This document shows positions 3 to 7,210 of a stretch of DNA of 27,368 nucleotides, one piece after another (positions within the stretch are counted from its first letter, which is position 1; each line of letters starts with the position of its first letter). The translations under genes and the position numbers were made by a program. The notes below the pieces were generated by a model. It was not told the origin of the DNA. It did no database searches and saw only the letters and a program-made list of their open reading frames with translations. The stretch is from a virus, in the IMG/VR virus record IMGVR_UViG_3300025128_000254, positions 1 to 27,368 of that record; one strand, given 5' to 3'.

Positions 3-314
3 CCAATAGCAGCTGCGTTGGGATTAGGCTTCTTTATATGGAAATTAATTAACCGGATCATTGATGGGTTAGAGACAAAGGTAAATACATTAGACGATAA
101 AGTAGAAGCGGCTTTGAATGCTATGGAAGAAAGGCTTAGTACTAAATTAGATAGTCAGCACGTTATTATTATTAGCCTTATCGATAGAGTACGCGCTGTG
201 GACAATCAAACTATACGTCAGGATGTCTTGCTTAAAACGTTGCTGGGTGTACCAAATCTAATTGATATAGAAAAAGTAGCCAAAGCAGATCGGGATGACC
301 AGCGTAAAGATTAG
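3..314 (+). CDS. Membrane-anchored coiled-coil protein, 5' truncated
   Basis: The reading frame is open from the first bases of the window and ends at TAG 312-314, so the true start probably lies upstream; a TTG at 18 is the first possible internal start. The visible N-terminus is a hydrophobic segment (AAALGLGFFIW) followed by a charged, heptad-like stretch of about 45 residues (ETKVNTLDDKVEAALNAMEE) and a second hydrophobic patch (HVIIISLIDRV). I do not recognise a family with certainty. A short TM plus coiled coil fits a holin-like or lysis-accessory phage protein, or a membrane partner of the curli genes that follow. Its last codons overlap the csgF start by 20 nt, which suggests translational coupling. 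Function is unassigned. Confidence 0.6.
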   Translation, partial: PIAAALGLGFFIWKLINRIIDGLETKVNTLDDKVEAALNAMEERLSTKLDSQHVIIISLIDRVRAVDNQTIRQDVLLKTLLGVPNLIDIEKVAKADRDDQRKD

Positions 315-786
315 TCTGCTGCTTCTGGCATTGCCGGTGATGGCATCCGAGTTGGTCCATCGCTTCAATAGCCCGTCTTTTAATGGCATTAATCAATCCG
401 CGCATTACTTAACCATCGATGAGCAAGAACGTACACGAGCTGACGATCTAGCGAGTGAGATTCAAGAGAAGCTCGATGAGGCAGAGCGAGAGGCAGACAA
501 CACCGTACTGTCTAAGTTTATTCGAAACCTGGAATCTCGCATTTACTCGACCTTAGCGAAAGACCTGAGTGAATCCCTATTTAACTACGACGGTATTCCA
601 ACCTCTGAGAACCCCATTACAGGAGAGATTAACTTAGAAGGGAATATCCTGAGATGGGTGAATGATGGGACAACGATTACGTTAACCATCGAGGAATGGT
701 TTGATGGTGTCATGATTTCTACGACAGAAATTGTTATTCCCGTAGGCAACTTTGGTGGTTGCTGGGCTGAGTGCGATGCGCCGTGA
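295..786 (+). CDS. csgF: CsgF-type curli assembly protein
   Basis: This 163-residue protein has a cleavable signal peptide (KISLLLLALPVMAS) followed by the mature N-terminus ELVHRFNSPSFNG. That matches the CsgF signature (aromatic/N-x-P-x-F-G-G) which in E. coli inserts into the CsgG channel. Further on, NTVLSKFIRNLESRIYSTLA corresponds to the helical linker region of CsgF, and a beta-rich C-terminus follows. In known systems CsgF caps CsgG on the cell surface and positions the nucleator. The length is close to typical CsgF proteins (about 140 residues). An unusual C-terminal tail carries two cysteines (GGCWAEC). The start ATG lies inside the preceding gene, and the end overlaps csgG by 11 nt. 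Assignment by motif is good, although no alignment was run. Confidence 0.85.
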   Translation: MTSVKISLLLLALPVMASELVHRFNSPSFNGINQSAHYLTIDEQERTRADDLASEIQEKLDEAEREADNTVLSKFIRNLESRIYSTLAKDLSESLFNYDGIPTSENPITGEINLEGNILRWVNDGTTITLTIEEWFDGVMISTTEIVIPVGNFGGCWAECDAP

Positions 787-1603
787 ATTTGTGTTGGTAT
801 GCCTTCTGTTTTTGGGTGGATGTACCGCATTCACTGGGGTGCAGCGTAGTCTAGAATTCGAAAGACAGGGACCGGAAATTGTTCCAAGTGCGGCTCATCA
901 GTTACTAAATTTACCCCCTCCTAAGACTAAAGCGGTAGTAGCCGTTTATGAGTTTTTAGATAAGACGGGACAGCGTAAGGCGTTAGATAATATCGCGTCG
1001 TTTAGTACAGCCGTGACGCAAGGCGGCATTGATATCTTGATCGAAGCATTGCGGGATGCCGGTCGAGGCAATTGGTTCGCGGTAGTGGAACGTGCGGGAT
1101 TAGACGGTTTAACTCGCGAACGTCAACTGATTAAAAATACCCGTGATATGTACGAAGGGGAAGGAGCTAACCGGCTCAAGCCTTTACTGTACGCGGGCAT
1201 TATTATTGAAGGTGGTATTATTGGCTACGACACCAACCTCAGAACCGGAGGGAGTGGAGCACGAACATTAGGTATTGGGACACGGCATCAGTACCGTGAA
1301 GACAAAGTTACTGTTGTTTTGCGCGCAGTTTTGGTACAAACAGGAGAAGTATTGCTGAACGCAACGGCAACCAAAACAATTCTGTCTACCGGGGGTGGTA
1401 CAGATTTCTTTCGGTTCTATGAATTAGGGACACAACTAGTAGAGGCGGAAAGCGGCAGTACGGAAAACGAAGCGGTCAATCACGCAGTCAGAGCAGCCAT
1501 AGAAGCTGCGGTGTATGGGCTCGTTATCAAAGGACTTGAACAACAGGTATGGGACTTTGATTACTCAACATTGGAGGACAGCGAGGATGAAGAAGCTTCT
1601 TAG
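776..1603 (+). CDS. csgG: CsgG-type curli secretion channel lipoprotein
   Basis: The ORF can extend to 752, but ATG 776 gives a clean lipoprotein signal: MRREF, a hydrophobic run, then lipobox LGGC with Cys16 as the lipidated residue. The 275-residue product matches CsgG in length and in ordered motifs. These include VAVYEFLDKTGQRK near residue 60, the segment around WFAVVERAGLDGLTRERQLI, YAGIIIEGGIIGYDTN, and the DKVTVVLRAVLVQTGEVL strand pair. CsgG forms a nonameric outer-membrane pore that exports unfolded curlin subunits. It sits directly after csgF, with overlapping ends, and before two curlin-type subunits. The periplasmic adaptor CsgE is not visible in the window and may lie upstream. 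A full-length, intact reading frame argues against decay. Confidence 0.92.
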   Translation: MRREFVLVCLLFLGGCTAFTGVQRSLEFERQGPEIVPSAAHQLLNLPPPKTKAVVAVYEFLDKTGQRKALDNIASFSTAVTQGGIDILIEALRDAGRGNWFAVVERAGLDGLTRERQLIKNTRDMYEGEGANRLKPLLYAGIIIEGGIIGYDTNLRTGGSGARTLGIGTRHQYREDKVTVVLRAVLVQTGEVLLNATATKTILSTGGGTDFFRFYELGTQLVEAESGSTENEAVNHAVRAAIEAAVYGLVIKGLEQQVWDFDYSTLEDSEDEEAS

Positions 1604-2405
1604 TGTATTTGTACTATGTTTCCCCATGATTTCATTGGCGGGCAATAATGACATCTATCTCACACAAACGGGTACGGGGCTAACACTCACGATAGATCAG
1701 ATTGGTGCAACCAATACAATTGGTACGTCACAAGCAAGAGCCGAAATAAGTGGTGCAAGCATGACGGTTGACCTAGACCAAATCGGAGATAGCAACATTA
1801 TTGCGGCAAGTATTTTACAAGCTGGCAGTAGTAGTTGGACCTATAAAGCTACGGGGGATTCGAATACCGCGACCTTCGCAGTGGGTGGTACGGGCGATGT
1901 AGCAGGGTCAGATTTTGATTACGATGCAGCTGGTGCAAGTAATGTTTTGGTGTTCACGCAAGGTGACGCAGCGACGGCTACCACGGGTAACCAAGATTTT
2001 GATATTGACGGAACATCCAATAACGTCAACGTGAAATGTAATGTCGTGGGTTGTGTGAACAACTGGACGATTGCAGGAAACAGTAGTGATGTCGATACGA
2101 CACAGGCGGGATCAGCAGATTCCAATATTACTGGAACGCTCACTGGAAACTCCAACGAAGTGACAATCACCCAAGCGGGAGACAAGAAAAACCTGACGGC
2201 TACCGTCACTGGAGCCAGTAACGATATTGATGTTACGCAGTCAGGGAAAGAACACACGATTGCTATGACGTACACGGGTTCCAACATGAATATCGACATC
2301 GATCAAACCGATACGGTAAGCAGTAACGTAGCGAATCTACTACTGCAATCCAGCGGTGGATCAGGTTCTAGTATAAATATTGACCAATGCGCTTCTGGCT
2401 GCTGA
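1587..2405 (+). CDS. Curlin-repeat amyloid subunit 1 (CsgA/CsgB-like)
   Basis: ATG 1587 is chosen over upstream in-frame starts because it directly begins a signal peptide (MKKLLSVFVLCFPMISLAG) and follows GGACAGCGAGG. The mature chain is made of imperfect curlin-type units of roughly 22 residues. Alternating polar/hydrophobic strands end in Q-x-G turns followed by S-N or T-N: IDQIGATN, LDQIGDSN, ITQAGDKKN, VTQSGKEH, IDQTDTVSSN. About ten such units are visible, more than the five of E. coli CsgA. It is rich in T, S, N, G and D and almost free of aromatics. Two cysteine pairs occur (KCNVVGC and a terminal DQCASGC), which enteric curlins lack. It overlaps csgG by 17 nt and the FecR gene by 19 nt. 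The likely role is an exported amyloid fibre subunit using the neighbouring CsgG/CsgF. Confidence 0.85.
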   Translation: MKKLLSVFVLCFPMISLAGNNDIYLTQTGTGLTLTIDQIGATNTIGTSQARAEISGASMTVDLDQIGDSNIIAASILQAGSSSWTYKATGDSNTATFAVGGTGDVAGSDFDYDAAGASNVLVFTQGDAATATTGNQDFDIDGTSNNVNVKCNVVGCVNNWTIAGNSSDVDTTQAGSADSNITGTLTGNSNEVTITQAGDKKNLTATVTGASNDIDVTQSGKEHTIAMTYTGSNMNIDIDQTDTVSSNVANLLLQSSGGSGSSINIDQCASGC

Positions 2406-3466
2406 TTTTAGCGGGGTGGGCTAATGCAATTGATGTGGGGTCCATCTCGGAGTTGCGTGGAAACGGGGAGGTCATTCGACAGGGTTCTGATGATAAGCTG
2501 CTGGCAGAGCTGGCTCTAGGAATTTCCTCTTACGATGATGTCCGTACCGGAAATGGTCGGATCGCTATTGAGTTTTTGGATTCTTCGGTGGTTCGTTTAA
2601 CGGAGCATTCGAAGCTGGTCATCGATGATTTCGTGTATGACCCGGACCCCAACAAATCGAAACTGGCTCTCAATATGGCTAGTGGTACGGCGCGTTTTAT
2701 TACGGGCCGACTGTCTGGAATAAAGAAAGAAAACATTTTCATTAAGACACCCAGCGCCACAATAGGTATCCGAGGAACGGATTTCACGACAACGGTGGAT
2801 GAGCTAGGGCGTAGCTTGGTGATTTTGTTACCGGATGCGAGTGGCAACTCATCTGGGTCTATCTCAGTAACGACATGGTCTGGTACGGAAATACTCGATC
2901 AACCGTTCCAAGCGACAATGGTGAGTACGTTTGAATCGCGCCCCACCAAAGCGGTAGTACTGGGCAATATCAGTTTGGATTTGATCGACAATATGCTCAT
3001 TGTCAATAAGCCTCCCGCCATCGTGGAAGCCGAGGCAGAGCAGCAGGGCGAAACGAGTTCCGATATAGACCGGGACTTCTTTGAGGACGCACCCGATTTA
3101 GATAAAGATTTCCTAGAAGAAGAGGAAGAGATCACTCGGCTGGATATCGATTTGTTGTCGTTTGATTTCCTGGTGGACTTGTTGGCGGTCATGGAAACCA
3201 GTTCTAAAAAGAAAACCGAAACGGTTAATGAACTGGACGGGATTGAGATTGCAGGCATTTTGCCGGGGTTCGATCCACAACTTCAGACGTATACGTTTAT
3301 TGAGGGGGAGCATCTGTTTTTTGTACACCAAGGAACGAATACGTTCGACATCGCGATAGATAAGTACAAGTCAACATCGCTGCGGATCAACAGTGTAGAA
3401 ACAATAATGGATGTAGAAGTTAATGGTGTGGGTGATAACACTATTATCATTTATCAGTCTCCCTAG
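2387..3466 (+). CDS. Secreted FecR-domain protein with curlin-like tail
   Basis: A short signal peptide (MRFWLLILAGWANA) precedes a FecR domain at about residues 18-135. Characteristic elements are G-x-G-E-V-x-x-x-x-x-D, RTGNGRIAIEFLDSSVVRL, and the hallmark TPSATIGIRGTDF at residues 121-133. There is no N-terminal anti-sigma helix or TM, so it is a periplasmic or secreted FecR protein, not a TonB-pathway sigma regulator. Residues about 225-250 are strongly acidic (DKDFLEEEEEITRLDIDLL). The last 45 residues contain curlin-like strand-turn units (HQGTNTFDIAID, NGVGDNTIIIYQ). Stand-alone FecR proteins are often neighbours of CHASE2 cyclases in bacteria. Here the gene lies between two curlin genes, overlapping both. 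Possible roles are surface nucleator, anchor or sensor ligand; the function is inferred only. Confidence 0.75.
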   Translation: MRFWLLILAGWANAIDVGSISELRGNGEVIRQGSDDKLLAELALGISSYDDVRTGNGRIAIEFLDSSVVRLTEHSKLVIDDFVYDPDPNKSKLALNMASGTARFITGRLSGIKKENIFIKTPSATIGIRGTDFTTTVDELGRSLVILLPDASGNSSGSISVTTWSGTEILDQPFQATMVSTFESRPTKAVVLGNISLDLIDNMLIVNKPPAIVEAEAEQQGETSSDIDRDFFEDAPDLDKDFLEEEEEITRLDIDLLSFDFLVDLLAVMETSSKKKTETVNELDGIEIAGILPGFDPQLQTYTFIEGEHLFFVHQGTNTFDIAIDKYKSTSLRINSVETIMDVEVNGVGDNTIIIYQSP

Positions 3467-4214
3467 CTTCGCGGGGGATAACCTCATTACGCTAAAGGCT
3501 CAAGGGACTGGTGCGACTATTACAACGAAGCAAGTAGGGACCAGCAACACCACAGGCATCTACTGCGGGCTTGGAAGTTTTGATAATACGTTGGTTCAAA
3601 ACCATACATGTGATAATGCGACCATAACGGTGAACGTGACAGGCGATTCGAATCAGGCATACACACAATCGGTCTGGTCTAATCACGACGGGCAGACCTG
3701 GATTACCACAGTAAACGGCAATAGTAATTATTCGGTCATCGACATGGATGAGGATGACAACACCTCGACCATCATCCAAACAGGTAATGACCATCAGGCG
3801 TGGATACTGGGCTCCGGGGATGACAATGTGTACAAGATCGAGCAAGACGGCGAGAGCCAATACGGAAAGATTATTTCCTTTGCGGATGACAGCGACATCT
3901 GGATCACACAAGAAGGAACGGGTGACCACAATGCGTATGTCTACAACTACAGCGCAGACAACGCCTCAACACGCTTGATACAGAAAGGCTCAGGAAATAA
4001 AGATGCGGATATATTCTGGTACAGCGGCGGTGATGACGGTGAAGTGACACTGACGCAACAAGGCAACGGAGCGCACACCTCGTTGATGCGGTTTTATACT
4101 AGTGACTATGATGTCACCGTGGTACAGAAAGGCGCAACTAATAAGTCGTACAGTGCGACCTTTAATTGTACAAGCAACTGCAACAAGACGATTTCAATCA
4201 CACAACAGGACTAA
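3423..4214 (+). CDS. Curlin-repeat amyloid subunit 2
   Basis: ATG 3423 lies 44 nt inside the FecR gene and gives a signal peptide ending LPSFAG. The mature N-terminus (GDNLITLKAQGTGATITTKQ) aligns position by position with subunit 1 (GNNDIYLTQTGTGLTLTIDQ), so the two are paralogues. Around nine Q-x-G type turns follow: IIQTGNDH, IEQDGESQ, ITQEGTGDHN, LIQKGSGN, LTQQGNGA, VVQKGATN and a final ITQQ. Unlike subunit 1 it is rich in W, Y, H and D. It carries cysteines near both ends (IYCGLG/NHTC and FNCTSNC). The gene ends 8 nt before the cyclase GTG start. Having two unequal curlin proteins parallels the major/minor CsgA/CsgB pair, but which one nucleates cannot be told from sequence. Confidence 0.83.
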   Translation: MVWVITLLSFISLPSFAGDNLITLKAQGTGATITTKQVGTSNTTGIYCGLGSFDNTLVQNHTCDNATITVNVTGDSNQAYTQSVWSNHDGQTWITTVNGNSNYSVIDMDEDDNTSTIIQTGNDHQAWILGSGDDNVYKIEQDGESQYGKIISFADDSDIWITQEGTGDHNAYVYNYSADNASTRLIQKGSGNKDADIFWYSGGDDGEVTLTQQGNGAHTSLMRFYTSDYDVTVVQKGATNKSYSATFNCTSNCNKTISITQQD

Positions 4215-4215
4215 C

Positions 4216-4229
4216 GTTTCACGTGAAAC
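4216..4229. promoter_or_regulatory. parS-like ParB-binding palindrome over cyclase start
   Basis: The sequence GTTTCACGTGAAAC is a perfect 14-bp palindrome, identical to the core of the bacterial chromosomal parS site (B. subtilis type TGTTTCACGTGAAACA). With flanks it reads CGTTTCACGTGAAACA, 15 of 16 positions. It begins 2 nt after the curlin-2 stop and contains the likely GTG start codon of the cyclase (4223-4225). As RNA it could also form a 5-bp hairpin with the start codon at its loop. By reading the window I found no second copy. The site match is exact; ParB binding is inference. Confidence 0.6.
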
Positions 4230-6010
4230 ATGCGCTTGTCATTCTTGCGGCCTTAATTGTTCTACGAGTCGCTGACCCGTGGCCCATAGAAACCTTGCGA
4301 CTAAAGTTCTTTGACAGCTTGTTTGCACTCGACGATCCGGTTCCTAGTGAAACTATTGCAATCTATAACATCGATGAGGATGCGCTTGCTGACAAAGGTC
4401 AATGGCCGTGGCCTCGATCTTATTTGGCTGATTTAAATAACGAGTTGCTCAATAAAGGCGCTGCAGCGGTGGTGTATACCGTATTGTTTCCAGAGGAAGA
4501 TCGCTTTGGTGAAGATGCGGCATTTGCACAAAGCATGGTAAACATACCGACGTTCTTATCTGCGGTAGCGACAACAGATACAGACCGAAAGGACGGTTGG
4601 CATATTGGTGTCAGTACTATTGGCCCGGTTTTAGAAAACGCCCCGGAGTATTCTGGCATTTTACCGAATGTGCCATTACTGCAAGCGGCAGCGGTGGGAA
4701 CCGGTATAGTCAATTCGGCTTTAGAGATAGATGGTCTGGTCCGTCGAGTTCCTATGCTCGTGCGCGTGGGTGACTCGTTGTATCCAGCGTTAGGTTTGGA
4801 TGTTCTACGTGGCTTGGCGGGTGACCCCAGTTACCAAGTAAAAGCGGGTGATGCAGGTATTCAAGCGGTGCGTGTGCCGCAGTTTTCTACTATCAATACA
4901 GACCGTTTAGGTCGTGTCTGGCTGAAGTGGAATACCACGTTTAGCGATAACGTCGAATCCAAAATTGTATTGGTGGGAGTGACAGCTGCGGGAGTCAGCC
5001 CGATGGTATCCACGCCTATTGGATTGATGCATCCGCATCGTATCCAGGCGGCTTTATTCGAAACATTGATGCAGGGTACATCACCTACACGCCCCGACTG
5101 GTCATTGGCTGCTGAAATAGCACTCATTTTAGTTGTTGGTGTAGTGGTTGCGGCCTTAACAAAATACATCGCGGTCATGTGGGTGAGTGCCGTGGTACTG
5201 ATCAGCGGTGCAGTAACGGCTTCGGCATCCGTGTATGCGTACACCCGGTATGGATTGCTTTTAGATGCGGCCTTTCCACTTTTAACCCTTTTCAGTGTGG
5301 GTGCGACGGGTATTGCCCAGAGAATGATTACGGAATATCGGCTGAAGTTGCAGATTCGAGGCCAGTTTGGAACGTATGTATCTCCTGACCTGGTGAAGCA
5401 ACTAGAGAACGATCCGTCGCTATTGAAGCTGGGTGGCGAAACAAAGACGATGACGTTTCTTTTCTCGGACATAGTGGGCTTCACTCCTATCTCAGAGAAA
5501 TTGCAAGATGATCCACAGAAGCTGGTGGACTTGGTGAATCGATTGCTGACACAGCTCACTGATTGTGTGCTTCGGCATGGAGGTACGGTCGATAAGTTTA
5601 TGGGTGACTGCATCATGGCATTCTGGGGTGCGCCTCTGGATTGTGAGAATCATGCGGAACGCGCCATGCTGACAGCCAAAGATATGTTGGCATTGATTGA
5701 TGATCTTAACGCAGAGCTCGATGCGGAAGGGTTGCCCAATCTCAATGTGGGCGTAGGCATTAATAGTGGACCCTGTGTGGTGGGGAATATGGGAAGCCAG
5801 AGTCGATTCGATTACTCGGTGCTGGGGGATGCCGTCAACGTGGCAAGTCGCCTCGAGGGTCAAACTCGAAACTACGATGCATGGATTCTCATGGGCGAAA
5901 ATACGGTAACATATAAGCCTGAATGGGCTACCTATGTGGATGCGATTCAAGTGAAAGGGAAGAGTGAACCTTTGAAAGTCTTTACGTTAAAAGAGCATGT
6001 GGCAGATTAG
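4223..6010 (+). CDS. CHASE2-domain class III adenylate/guanylate cyclase
   Basis: The frame has no ATG near its start. GTG 4223 is preferred over TTG 4166 because it gives the usual CHASE2 N-terminus: a short tail, TM1 (ALVILAALIVL), then DPWPIETLRLKFFD. From GTG the protein is 595 residues. CHASE2 sensor spans about residues 20-285, followed by three TM helices (about 296-366). A class III catalytic domain follows at about 408-590. Metal-binding Asp416 (FSDIVGFT) and Asp462 (KFMGD), purine-recognition Lys458 and Asp530, and transition-state Asn539 and Arg543 (GDAVNVASRLE) are all present, so it looks active. The Lys/Asp pair favours ATP over GTP. The sensor faces the periplasm, where the FecR protein passes. 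It overlaps the spanin gene by 14 nt. A phage-borne intact cyclase is unusual. Confidence 0.92.
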   Translation: MKHALVILAALIVLRVADPWPIETLRLKFFDSLFALDDPVPSETIAIYNIDEDALADKGQWPWPRSYLADLNNELLNKGAAAVVYTVLFPEEDRFGEDAAFAQSMVNIPTFLSAVATTDTDRKDGWHIGVSTIGPVLENAPEYSGILPNVPLLQAAAVGTGIVNSALEIDGLVRRVPMLVRVGDSLYPALGLDVLRGLAGDPSYQVKAGDAGIQAVRVPQFSTINTDRLGRVWLKWNTTFSDNVESKIVLVGVTAAGVSPMVSTPIGLMHPHRIQAALFETLMQGTSPTRPDWSLAAEIALILVVGVVVAALTKYIAVMWVSAVVLISGAVTASASVYAYTRYGLLLDAAFPLLTLFSVGATGIAQRMITEYRLKLQIRGQFGTYVSPDLVKQLENDPSLLKLGGETKTMTFLFSDIVGFTPISEKLQDDPQKLVDLVNRLLTQLTDCVLRHGGTVDKFMGDCIMAFWGAPLDCENHAERAMLTAKDMLALIDDLNAELDAEGLPNLNVGVGINSGPCVVGNMGSQSRFDYSVLGDAVNVASRLEGQTRNYDAWILMGENTVTYKPEWATYVDAIQVKGKSEPLKVFTLKEHVAD

Positions 6011-6434
6011 CGCGGCGCTTGGCGTAGCTCTAGTCGTTGCGGGTGGTGCATTTAAAATGTACTACGATAAATCCGAGGCTGAAAAAGAAGCGATGGCTAC
6101 CCAGTTGCAACAAGCGATGGATAATCAGCAACGCTTAGAGAATGCGATAGCGGATCAAAATGAGCAGATCGAGAAGGCGCTTGCAGAACAGAAAGAATCG
6201 CAGGAACGCATTCAAAGTTTAACGGTGGCAAACAATGAAGCCAACGAGAAAGTAGAAGAGTTACGCAACAAGTTTGCACGGCACGATCTGGATATGTTGT
6301 CGATACGCAAGCCAGGTCTAGTAGAGAAACTGGTGAATCGAGGCACAGCCAAGGTGTTTGCTGATTTAGAAAAGCTGACTGACCCCAATCAATTTGATGA
6401 AGATACTAGTACCGATACTGTTAATCCTAGTTAG
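5997..6434 (+). CDS. Inner-membrane spanin (Rz-like)
   Basis: This 145-residue protein has one N-terminal TM segment (ISAALGVALVVAGGAF) with N-in topology. A long charged coiled coil follows (about residues 24-95, rich in E, Q, K and A), then a conserved-looking tail, ARHDLDMLSIRKPGLVEKLV. This is the layout of an i-spanin, the Rz component that spans the periplasm and fuses inner and outer membranes after the peptidoglycan is cut. The start lies inside the end of the cyclase gene, and its 3' end overlaps the following lipoprotein gene in another reading frame, as in many Rz/Rz1 pairs. The endolysin follows. Assignment rests on architecture and context. Confidence 0.78.
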   Translation: MWQISAALGVALVVAGGAFKMYYDKSEAEKEAMATQLQQAMDNQQRLENAIADQNEQIEKALAEQKESQERIQSLTVANNEANEKVEELRNKFARHDLDMLSIRKPGLVEKLVNRGTAKVFADLEKLTDPNQFDEDTSTDTVNPS

Positions 6435-6789
6435 CGGCTGTTCTCTTTTGGGGCCGTCGCGGTTTACTCCACCGGAAGTGCGGCCGGTTGAGGTGATAAC
6501 TATTGAGAAACCAGCCCCGATGTATCACCCTCCGTTACCAATGGCAGTCAAGTCAGTTCCCGTGGAGTGGAAGATCCTGACACCAGATACCATGGAAGAG
6601 TATTTGAATGATTTAAAAGCAGGCGAAGCACCTGTAAATGCTTGGTATTCTTTGACAACCAAAGGATACGAAAACCTTAGTAACAATGTGGCACAGGTTC
6701 AAAGATATATTCAGCAGGTTCTTTCTATTGTTGAATACTATAGAGAAACCGATAAGGCGAAAGAGGAAGACAATGAGCAGACTGACTGA
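6397..6789 (+). CDS. Lipoprotein, candidate outer-membrane spanin (Rz1-like)
   Basis: ATG 6397 (a TTG sits just before it) starts a 130-residue lipoprotein with lipobox LVSGC and Cys15 as lipid anchor. A proline-rich segment follows (PPEVRPVE, KPAPMYHPPLPM), as in Rz1 proteins. Next comes a helical domain with WKILTPDTMEEYLNDL and WYSLTTKGYENLSNNVAQVQ, of a type I associate with marine podo- and myophages. It overlaps the i-spanin gene by 38 nt in a different frame and the lysozyme by 17 nt. It is longer than classical Rz1 (about 60 residues), so an alternative is a general phage lipoprotein with a role beyond spanin function. Confidence 0.65.
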   Translation: MKILVPILLILVSGCSLLGPSRFTPPEVRPVEVITIEKPAPMYHPPLPMAVKSVPVEWKILTPDTMEEYLNDLKAGEAPVNAWYSLTTKGYENLSNNVAQVQRYIQQVLSIVEYYRETDKAKEEDNEQTD

Positions 6790-7210
6790 GATGCTAAGAA
6801 GACATGAAGGTGTAGAAAGTCATGCGTACATGTGTTCGCAGAATTTCTGGACGATTGGCGTTGGGCGCAACGTGGACCCCGGTGATAATGGAGCGGCCAA
6901 AGGTCTTGGCTTGTCAGATGATGAGATTGACTACTTACTTAGTAATGATATTAAGCGAGTGGAAAAAGAATTGAGTGATGAGTATGAATGGTTCTCTGGT
7001 TTAGATGATGTGCGTCGAGACTGCATGGTGGACATTAGCTTTAATCTGGGCCAAACCCGTTTGAGAGGATTTAAAAAAGCTTTGAGTGCTATGGCAGAAA
7101 GTGATTGGGAAGAGGCTAGTGAGCAATTTTTAGATAGCCGTTGGGCAGATCAGGTGGGGAATAGATCGACTGAATTGGCTGAGATGATTAGAACAGGGGA
7201 ATATAGATAA
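6773..7210 (+). CDS. T4-type lysozyme / endolysin (GH24)
   Basis: ATG 6773 is chosen over upstream starts because it follows GAGGAAGACA and places the catalytic motif near the N-terminus. The 145-residue product has the GH24 triad with exact family spacing: Glu12 (RRHEG), eight residues, Cys21 in the Asp/Cys position, five residues, Thr27 (FWTIGVG). The C-terminal lobe shows DVRRDCMVDISFNLG and WADQVGNRSTELAEMIRTGE, also typical. It would hydrolyse murein beta-1,4 bonds. There is no signal peptide, so release presumably depends on a holin, perhaps encoded upstream. The stop TAA shares its last A with the ATG of the next gene. Confidence 0.92.
   Translation: MSRLTEMLRRHEGVESHAYMCSQNFWTIGVGRNVDPGDNGAAKGLGLSDDEIDYLLSNDIKRVEKELSDEYEWFSGLDDVRRDCMVDISFNLGQTRLRGFKKALSAMAESDWEEASEQFLDSRWADQVGNRSTELAEMIRTGEYR

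Follow-up and report, generated by a model that had tools for sequence, protein, structure and literature searches.

The FecR-domain protein encoded between the two curlin genes of a marine phage curli module ends in a curlin-like tail. The curli module with FecR and cyclase has already been published; the tail is a new feature for which we found no report. As the best explanation we propose that the protein acts as a periplasmic adaptor linking the curlins to a CHASE2-cyclase in this phage-borne curli system, a proposal that we hold tentatively and with slightly less than even confidence. An adaptor that would inform the cyclase about the state of the curlins or of the fibre is preferred over a nucleator of the CsgB type.

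The curli module and its gene order

The window, that is the whole stretch of DNA that was analysed, is a 27,368-base IMG/VR virus record from a marine phage, and a structural protein of this contig has remote relatives in pelagiphage HTVC027P and in 023Pt_psg01 (26% identity). Its curli (type VIII secretion) module occupies positions 18–6010, where the ORF list and profile matches gave the order CsgF, CsgG, curlin, FecR, curlin and CHASE2-cyclase, with all features described here on the plus strand. CsgF (295–786; PF10614, E 3.6e-7) is followed by CsgG (752–1603, with a probable start near 785; PF03783, E 2.6e-53), curlin 1 (1587–2405, starting inside the ORF listed at 1515–2405; PF07012, E 1.5e-8), the FecR-domain protein of 359 aa (2387–3466; PF04773, E 4.8e-12; PHROG 37870 over residues 5–357), curlin 2 (3423–4214; PF07012, E 1.1e-5; CsgA model E 5.5e-11, which is under that model's cut-off) and the CHASE2-adenylate/guanylate cyclase (4223–6010; PF05226, E 9.3e-38; PF00211, E 5.5e-22). 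Successive genes overlap in different frames by 17 (1587–1603), 19 (2387–2405) and 44 bases (3423–3466), which suggests translational coupling. Curlin 1, ending in SINIDQCASGC, overlaps the start of FecR, and the 44 bases are shared by the FecR tail and the start of curlin 2, which itself ends in KTISITQQD. Conserved cysteines are present at the curlin C-termini of many loci, here as CASGC in curlin 1 (2385–2402) and as a Cys pair ahead of the last strand of curlin 2 (4160–4210). At the upstream edge a small membrane/coiled-coil ORF of 98 aa with a membrane-like start (18–314) stands where published modules have a 'histidine kinase', and the profile search matched no kinase domain in it; small ORFs akin to it also precede CsgF in five other loci. 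At the downstream edge (5997–7210) a coiled-coil membrane-type ORF overlaps the cyclase stop, and behind it come a lipoprotein-like ORF and a phage lysozyme. The module adjoins an apparent lysis cassette, an arrangement relevant to the published proposal that lysis is affected by the pores of phage curli.

The order curlin–FecR–(curlin)–cyclase is fixed across divergent viral loci, as computed from 127 of them: in 123 FecR directly follows a curlin, and in 105 the cyclase is located downstream, the rest being mostly short contigs. Annotations of Pelagibacter phage HTVC008M and of the Melnitz phages give the same order. One FecR gene of the collection is split over two frames and looks broken or misassembled, and three viral records show a cyclase match with one in-frame TAA. 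PMC9599517 describes a curli module of uncultivated pelagiphages with the same genes in the same order (CsgF, CsgG, CsgA/B-like, FecR, second curlin, adenylate cyclase) and calls FecR an iron-dependent or ferric citrate regulator; phage type VIII secretion modules are also the subject of PMC7029224 and PMC9004378. Term searches of the text of PMC9599517 and of two other phage-curli papers gave no mention of a curlin-like FecR C-terminus, and no paper dealing with curlin repeats and FecR jointly was found in a search of open-access literature.

Two Caulobacteraceae assemblies carry a chromosomal csgF-csgG-curlin-curlin-FecR-CHASE2-cyclase locus with a FecR ending in QDVSVNGGGT[VI]INVTQD, and thus the tail also occurs outside phages. 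The idea that alphaproteobacterial curli operons usually include FecR and cyclase was rejected; seven ordinary Caulobacterales csg loci gave no match to either within the DNA read. The tail was also rejected as a general property of FecR proteins, as about 35 alphaproteobacterial FecR matches outside curli operons are without the ending, many of these being read to the end of the retrieved DNA and not to the protein end. In a sample of Alphaproteobacteria at least 19 of 89 FecR matches have a CHASE2 match no more than 6 kb away versus about 0.6 expected, where 19 is a lower bound from an approximate count and the expectation is rough. Taking gene adjacency or a common operon as the mark of a FecR/CHASE2 signalling pair, the window contains such a pair.

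The curlin-like tail of the FecR protein

The N-terminus of the protein (MRFWLLILAGWANA) is signal-peptide-like as judged by eye, from which a periplasmic location may be assumed, and the FecR profile PF04773 was matched above its cut-off (46.6 bits vs 24). AlphaFold2, run with 116 homologues, predicts a FecR-fold domain (residues 16–180, 2432–2926) with a pLDDT of mostly about 90 or more, an acidic low-confidence linker (residues 200–278, 2984–3220; pLDDT 50–60) and a C-terminal all-beta domain (residues 280–359, 3224–3463; pLDDT 85–96 in the full protein). The first of these has the fold of solved FecR-type periplasmic domains (4m0h and 6ovk; Foldseek probability 1.00, E < 1e-3). A further Foldseek match to the cell surface anchoring domain 5ix9 probably also belongs to the FecR domain, since 5ix9 was not among the matches listed for the C-terminal domain alone and since the sequence of another FecR-region protein gives a match to 5ix9 (E 3.9e-5, with antifreeze protein as molecule name). 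This domain anchors an RTX adhesin in the periplasm. The N-terminal domain fold is common to the phage protein, to FecR-type anti-sigma regulators (4m0h; PupR, 6ovk) and probably to the antifreeze adhesin anchor, whereas the phage protein differs from the anti-sigma regulators in having no evident cytoplasmic anti-sigma region and a CHASE2 cyclase as partner gene.

Curlin repeats of 23 ± 5 residues are built from the kernel N-x-psi-x-psi-x-Q and X-G-X-X loops (PMC10192328). Alignment, profile-profile comparison, AlphaFold2 and self-similarity define a curlin-like repeat segment with a strand period of about 10.5/21 at residues 300–359 (3284–3463), and the kernel is matched at its end by N351-T-I-I-I-Y-Q357 (3437–3457). 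The initial annotation had described a FecR domain joined to a curlin-like segment beside curlin genes, with curlin-like strand units at 3320–3463, which encodes residues 312–359 of the FecR ORF (protein end DVEVNGVGDNTIIIYQSP). This arrangement is what we find, and motif, period and profile-profile scores bear the strand units out. The tail is real, but it starts near residue 300 (3284 in the window) and not at 312, and the first of the units then named, FVHQGTNTFDIAID, lies outside the conserved register, the conserved units being TFDIAID-KYKS-TSLRINS and IMDVEVN-GVGD-NTIIIYQ.

The terminal motif stands out by its conservation. G347, I355 and Q357 are invariant in 25 aligned phage homologues, with the surrounding third of the protein poorly conserved, and the last columns of 127 non-redundant homologues read I (97%), x, I (99%), x, Q (99%). 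[IV]x[IV]xQ closes 284 of 285 FecR homologues, and the strict motif including the glycine is present in 277 of them; seven of the remaining eight are without the glycine only, and the eighth, which is also the single exception to the shorter motif, is the Hyphomonas locus L067, where curli genes, FecR and cyclase are present and the protein ends in VFILE without the Q. When counted as [IVL]x[IVL]xQx(0-6)-end, that is at most 6 residues from the stop, the ending was found in 126/127 FecR proteins, 84/118 upstream curlins and 53/67 downstream curlins versus 11/1080 other ORFs. This corresponds to 71–79% of the neighbouring curlins against 1% of other ORFs, a terminal strand common to FecR and the flanking curlins at about 70–100 times background. 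As the homologues are related, the motif counts are not independent events, and the control consists of other proteins of the same contigs. Of the 127 FecR homologues 107 close with a kernel that has N or S in first position, and elsewhere such a kernel turns up just 37 times among 47,192 positions; for a relaxed kernel preceded by a G-containing loop the counts are 114 of the 127 versus 5 elsewhere. Overprinting by the signal peptide of curlin 2 was rejected as the source of the motif, since the motif is kept in three loci that have no overlapping second curlin and the cyclase directly after FecR. Thus, a FecR tail motif beyond chance is confirmed.

The likeness extends to the repeat pattern. 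Over its last 60 residues the protein is self-similar at lags of 10, 21 and 31 (P = 0.001 vs column shuffles), the same analysis revealed no internal period in the FecR domain, and for the curlins of these phages the peaks fall at 11 and 22–26. In a profile-profile comparison the tail aligned to the phage curlin repeats over 31 of 32 columns with a score of 20.2 (E 4e-5 for this single comparison), for which 100 column shuffles reached a maximum of 10.5; a slightly different window gave 16.7, so that the score ranges from 16.7 to 20.2 depending on the window. All nulls stayed lower, with 200 shuffles in two sets at ≤ 10.8 and 75 CsgF, CsgG and cyclase windows at ≤ 10.9; FecR-domain windows scored ≤ 9.7 against the curlin repeats. 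With Caulobacterales curlin repeats as a separate set, the tail scored 13.5 and shuffles up to 10.75. We regard this profile signal as consistent but modest. A control set of C-terminal 45-mers that proved to contain curlins was left out of account. The tail of the window alone scores weakly (4.1 bits), and a PF07012 profile search, the check suggested initially, gave no match among the listed families for the window protein, 7 divergent homologues and 116 homologous C-terminal domains, which places the curlin signal in the family. The FecR tail thus resembles CsgA/CsgB in its kernel, G-rich loop and strand period and differs from them in the missing PF07012 match, a degenerate first unit, the attached FecR domain and the lack of a curlin fold by Foldseek.

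Predicted fold of the tail and alternative roles

When modelled alone, as had also been proposed initially, the C-terminal domain was predicted with confidence as compact and all-beta (AlphaFold2, pLDDT 91, pTM 0.81). The model of the full protein places regular strands at residues 301–306, 309–314, 320–325, 330–335, 340–345 and 351–356, which may either stack as curlin-like beta-arches in a solenoid or pack into an antiparallel sandwich. A likeness to curlins did not emerge at this level: the 50 PDB matches listed by Foldseek, all non-significant, include no curlin or solenoid structure and show weak similarity to Ig-like designs and crystallin-type sandwiches, and in a viral structure library a phage FecR protein was matched. 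Mean-field covariation from a shallow alignment (N 285, Neff 88), aimed at telling solenoid from sandwich, gave some excess at separation 21 and no clear strand registers, and thus did not separate the two. The confident model without a curlin match, the weak sandwich matches and the negative PF07012 search would all suit an ordinary small beta-sandwich domain of the FecR family with a role in dimerisation or CHASE2 binding, in which alternating hydrophobic strands ended by Q have become curlin-like by convergence. However, a period of 10/21 is not expected of a sandwich, the curlin-profile score exceeds all nulls and the terminal kernel is common to the neighbouring curlins, and we consider this explanation unlikely, although it deserves to be taken seriously.

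We saw no CsgC, CsgH or CsgE among the genes of the module, and CsgC, CsgD and CsgE are reported to be absent from these modules (PMC9599517). A small all-beta domain whose terminal strand mimics curlin could take their place as a periplasmic chaperone or inhibitor, capping curlin edges with its own strand and preventing premature amyloid. This is rather improbable, as the matches listed for the C-terminal domain include neither CsgC nor CsgH by sequence or fold and the fixed cyclase partner would be left unexplained.

The role suggested in the initial annotation, that of a nucleator or anchor comparable to CsgB and here placed on the cell surface, would agree with a terminal strand resembling curlin ends, including AIKVTQSGGR of Caulobacterales, and with the binding of CsgB by CsgF at the surface of E. 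coli (PMC6957492). The other observations do not support it and we judge it to be quite improbable: the module already has two true curlins, the tail offers only about three rung-equivalents versus five in CsgB, none of the 116 domains matches PF07012, the large folded FecR domain preceding the tail would need export, and no curlin structure was among the listed matches to the fold predicted for the tail. Least probable of all is a tethered nucleator-sensor, in which a periplasmic FecR domain would sit on CHASE2, an anchoring role drawn from the fold match to 5ix9, the linker would pass through the CsgG-CsgF pore and the curlin-like end would template the fibre outside, with growth or pull being reported to the cyclase.

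A possible link between curli fibres and cAMP

For the periplasmic adaptor we count the common terminal strand, the kernel and its period, the profile-profile score above all nulls, the fixed gene order, the Caulobacteraceae ending, the non-curli FecR proteins without it, and the proximity of FecR and CHASE2 together with published clusters. Counted against it are the missing PF07012 match, the missing match to a curlin or solenoid structure, covariation without clear registers and the ending of L067. A part of FecR in reading curli assembly, as suggested initially, is made plausible by the CHASE2-cyclase encoded as the next conserved gene and by the recurrence of FecR/CHASE2 pairing elsewhere, namely in a Burkholderia LysM-FecR with a CHASE2 kinase (PMC5192318) and in FecR and CHASE2 cyclase clusters of Campylobacterota (PMC9239204). 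In these pairs a FecR-domain extracytoplasmic protein likewise adjoins a CHASE2 receptor; the Burkholderia protein carries a LysM (peptidoglycan) domain, whereas here the attached part is curlin-like. We infer the compartment, the contacts and the signal of the adaptor as follows: after Sec export the FecR domain would contact the CHASE2 sensor that the cyclase exposes in the periplasm, and the curlin-like end would dock onto curlin subunits or onto the fibre base at CsgG/CsgF via the common strand ending. A backlog of curlins or the status of the fibre might then change cAMP in the infected cell.

Curli modules are present in some of the most abundant phages of the ocean, and neither their purpose nor the reason for FecR and the cyclase has been explained so far. 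The fibre-like end of FecR argues against a function as iron regulator here and provides a concrete candidate for the link between fibre subunits and cAMP signalling, which is suggestive and not proof. It would also suggest a general logic by which different envelope structures are connected to CHASE2 receptors through FecR adaptors.
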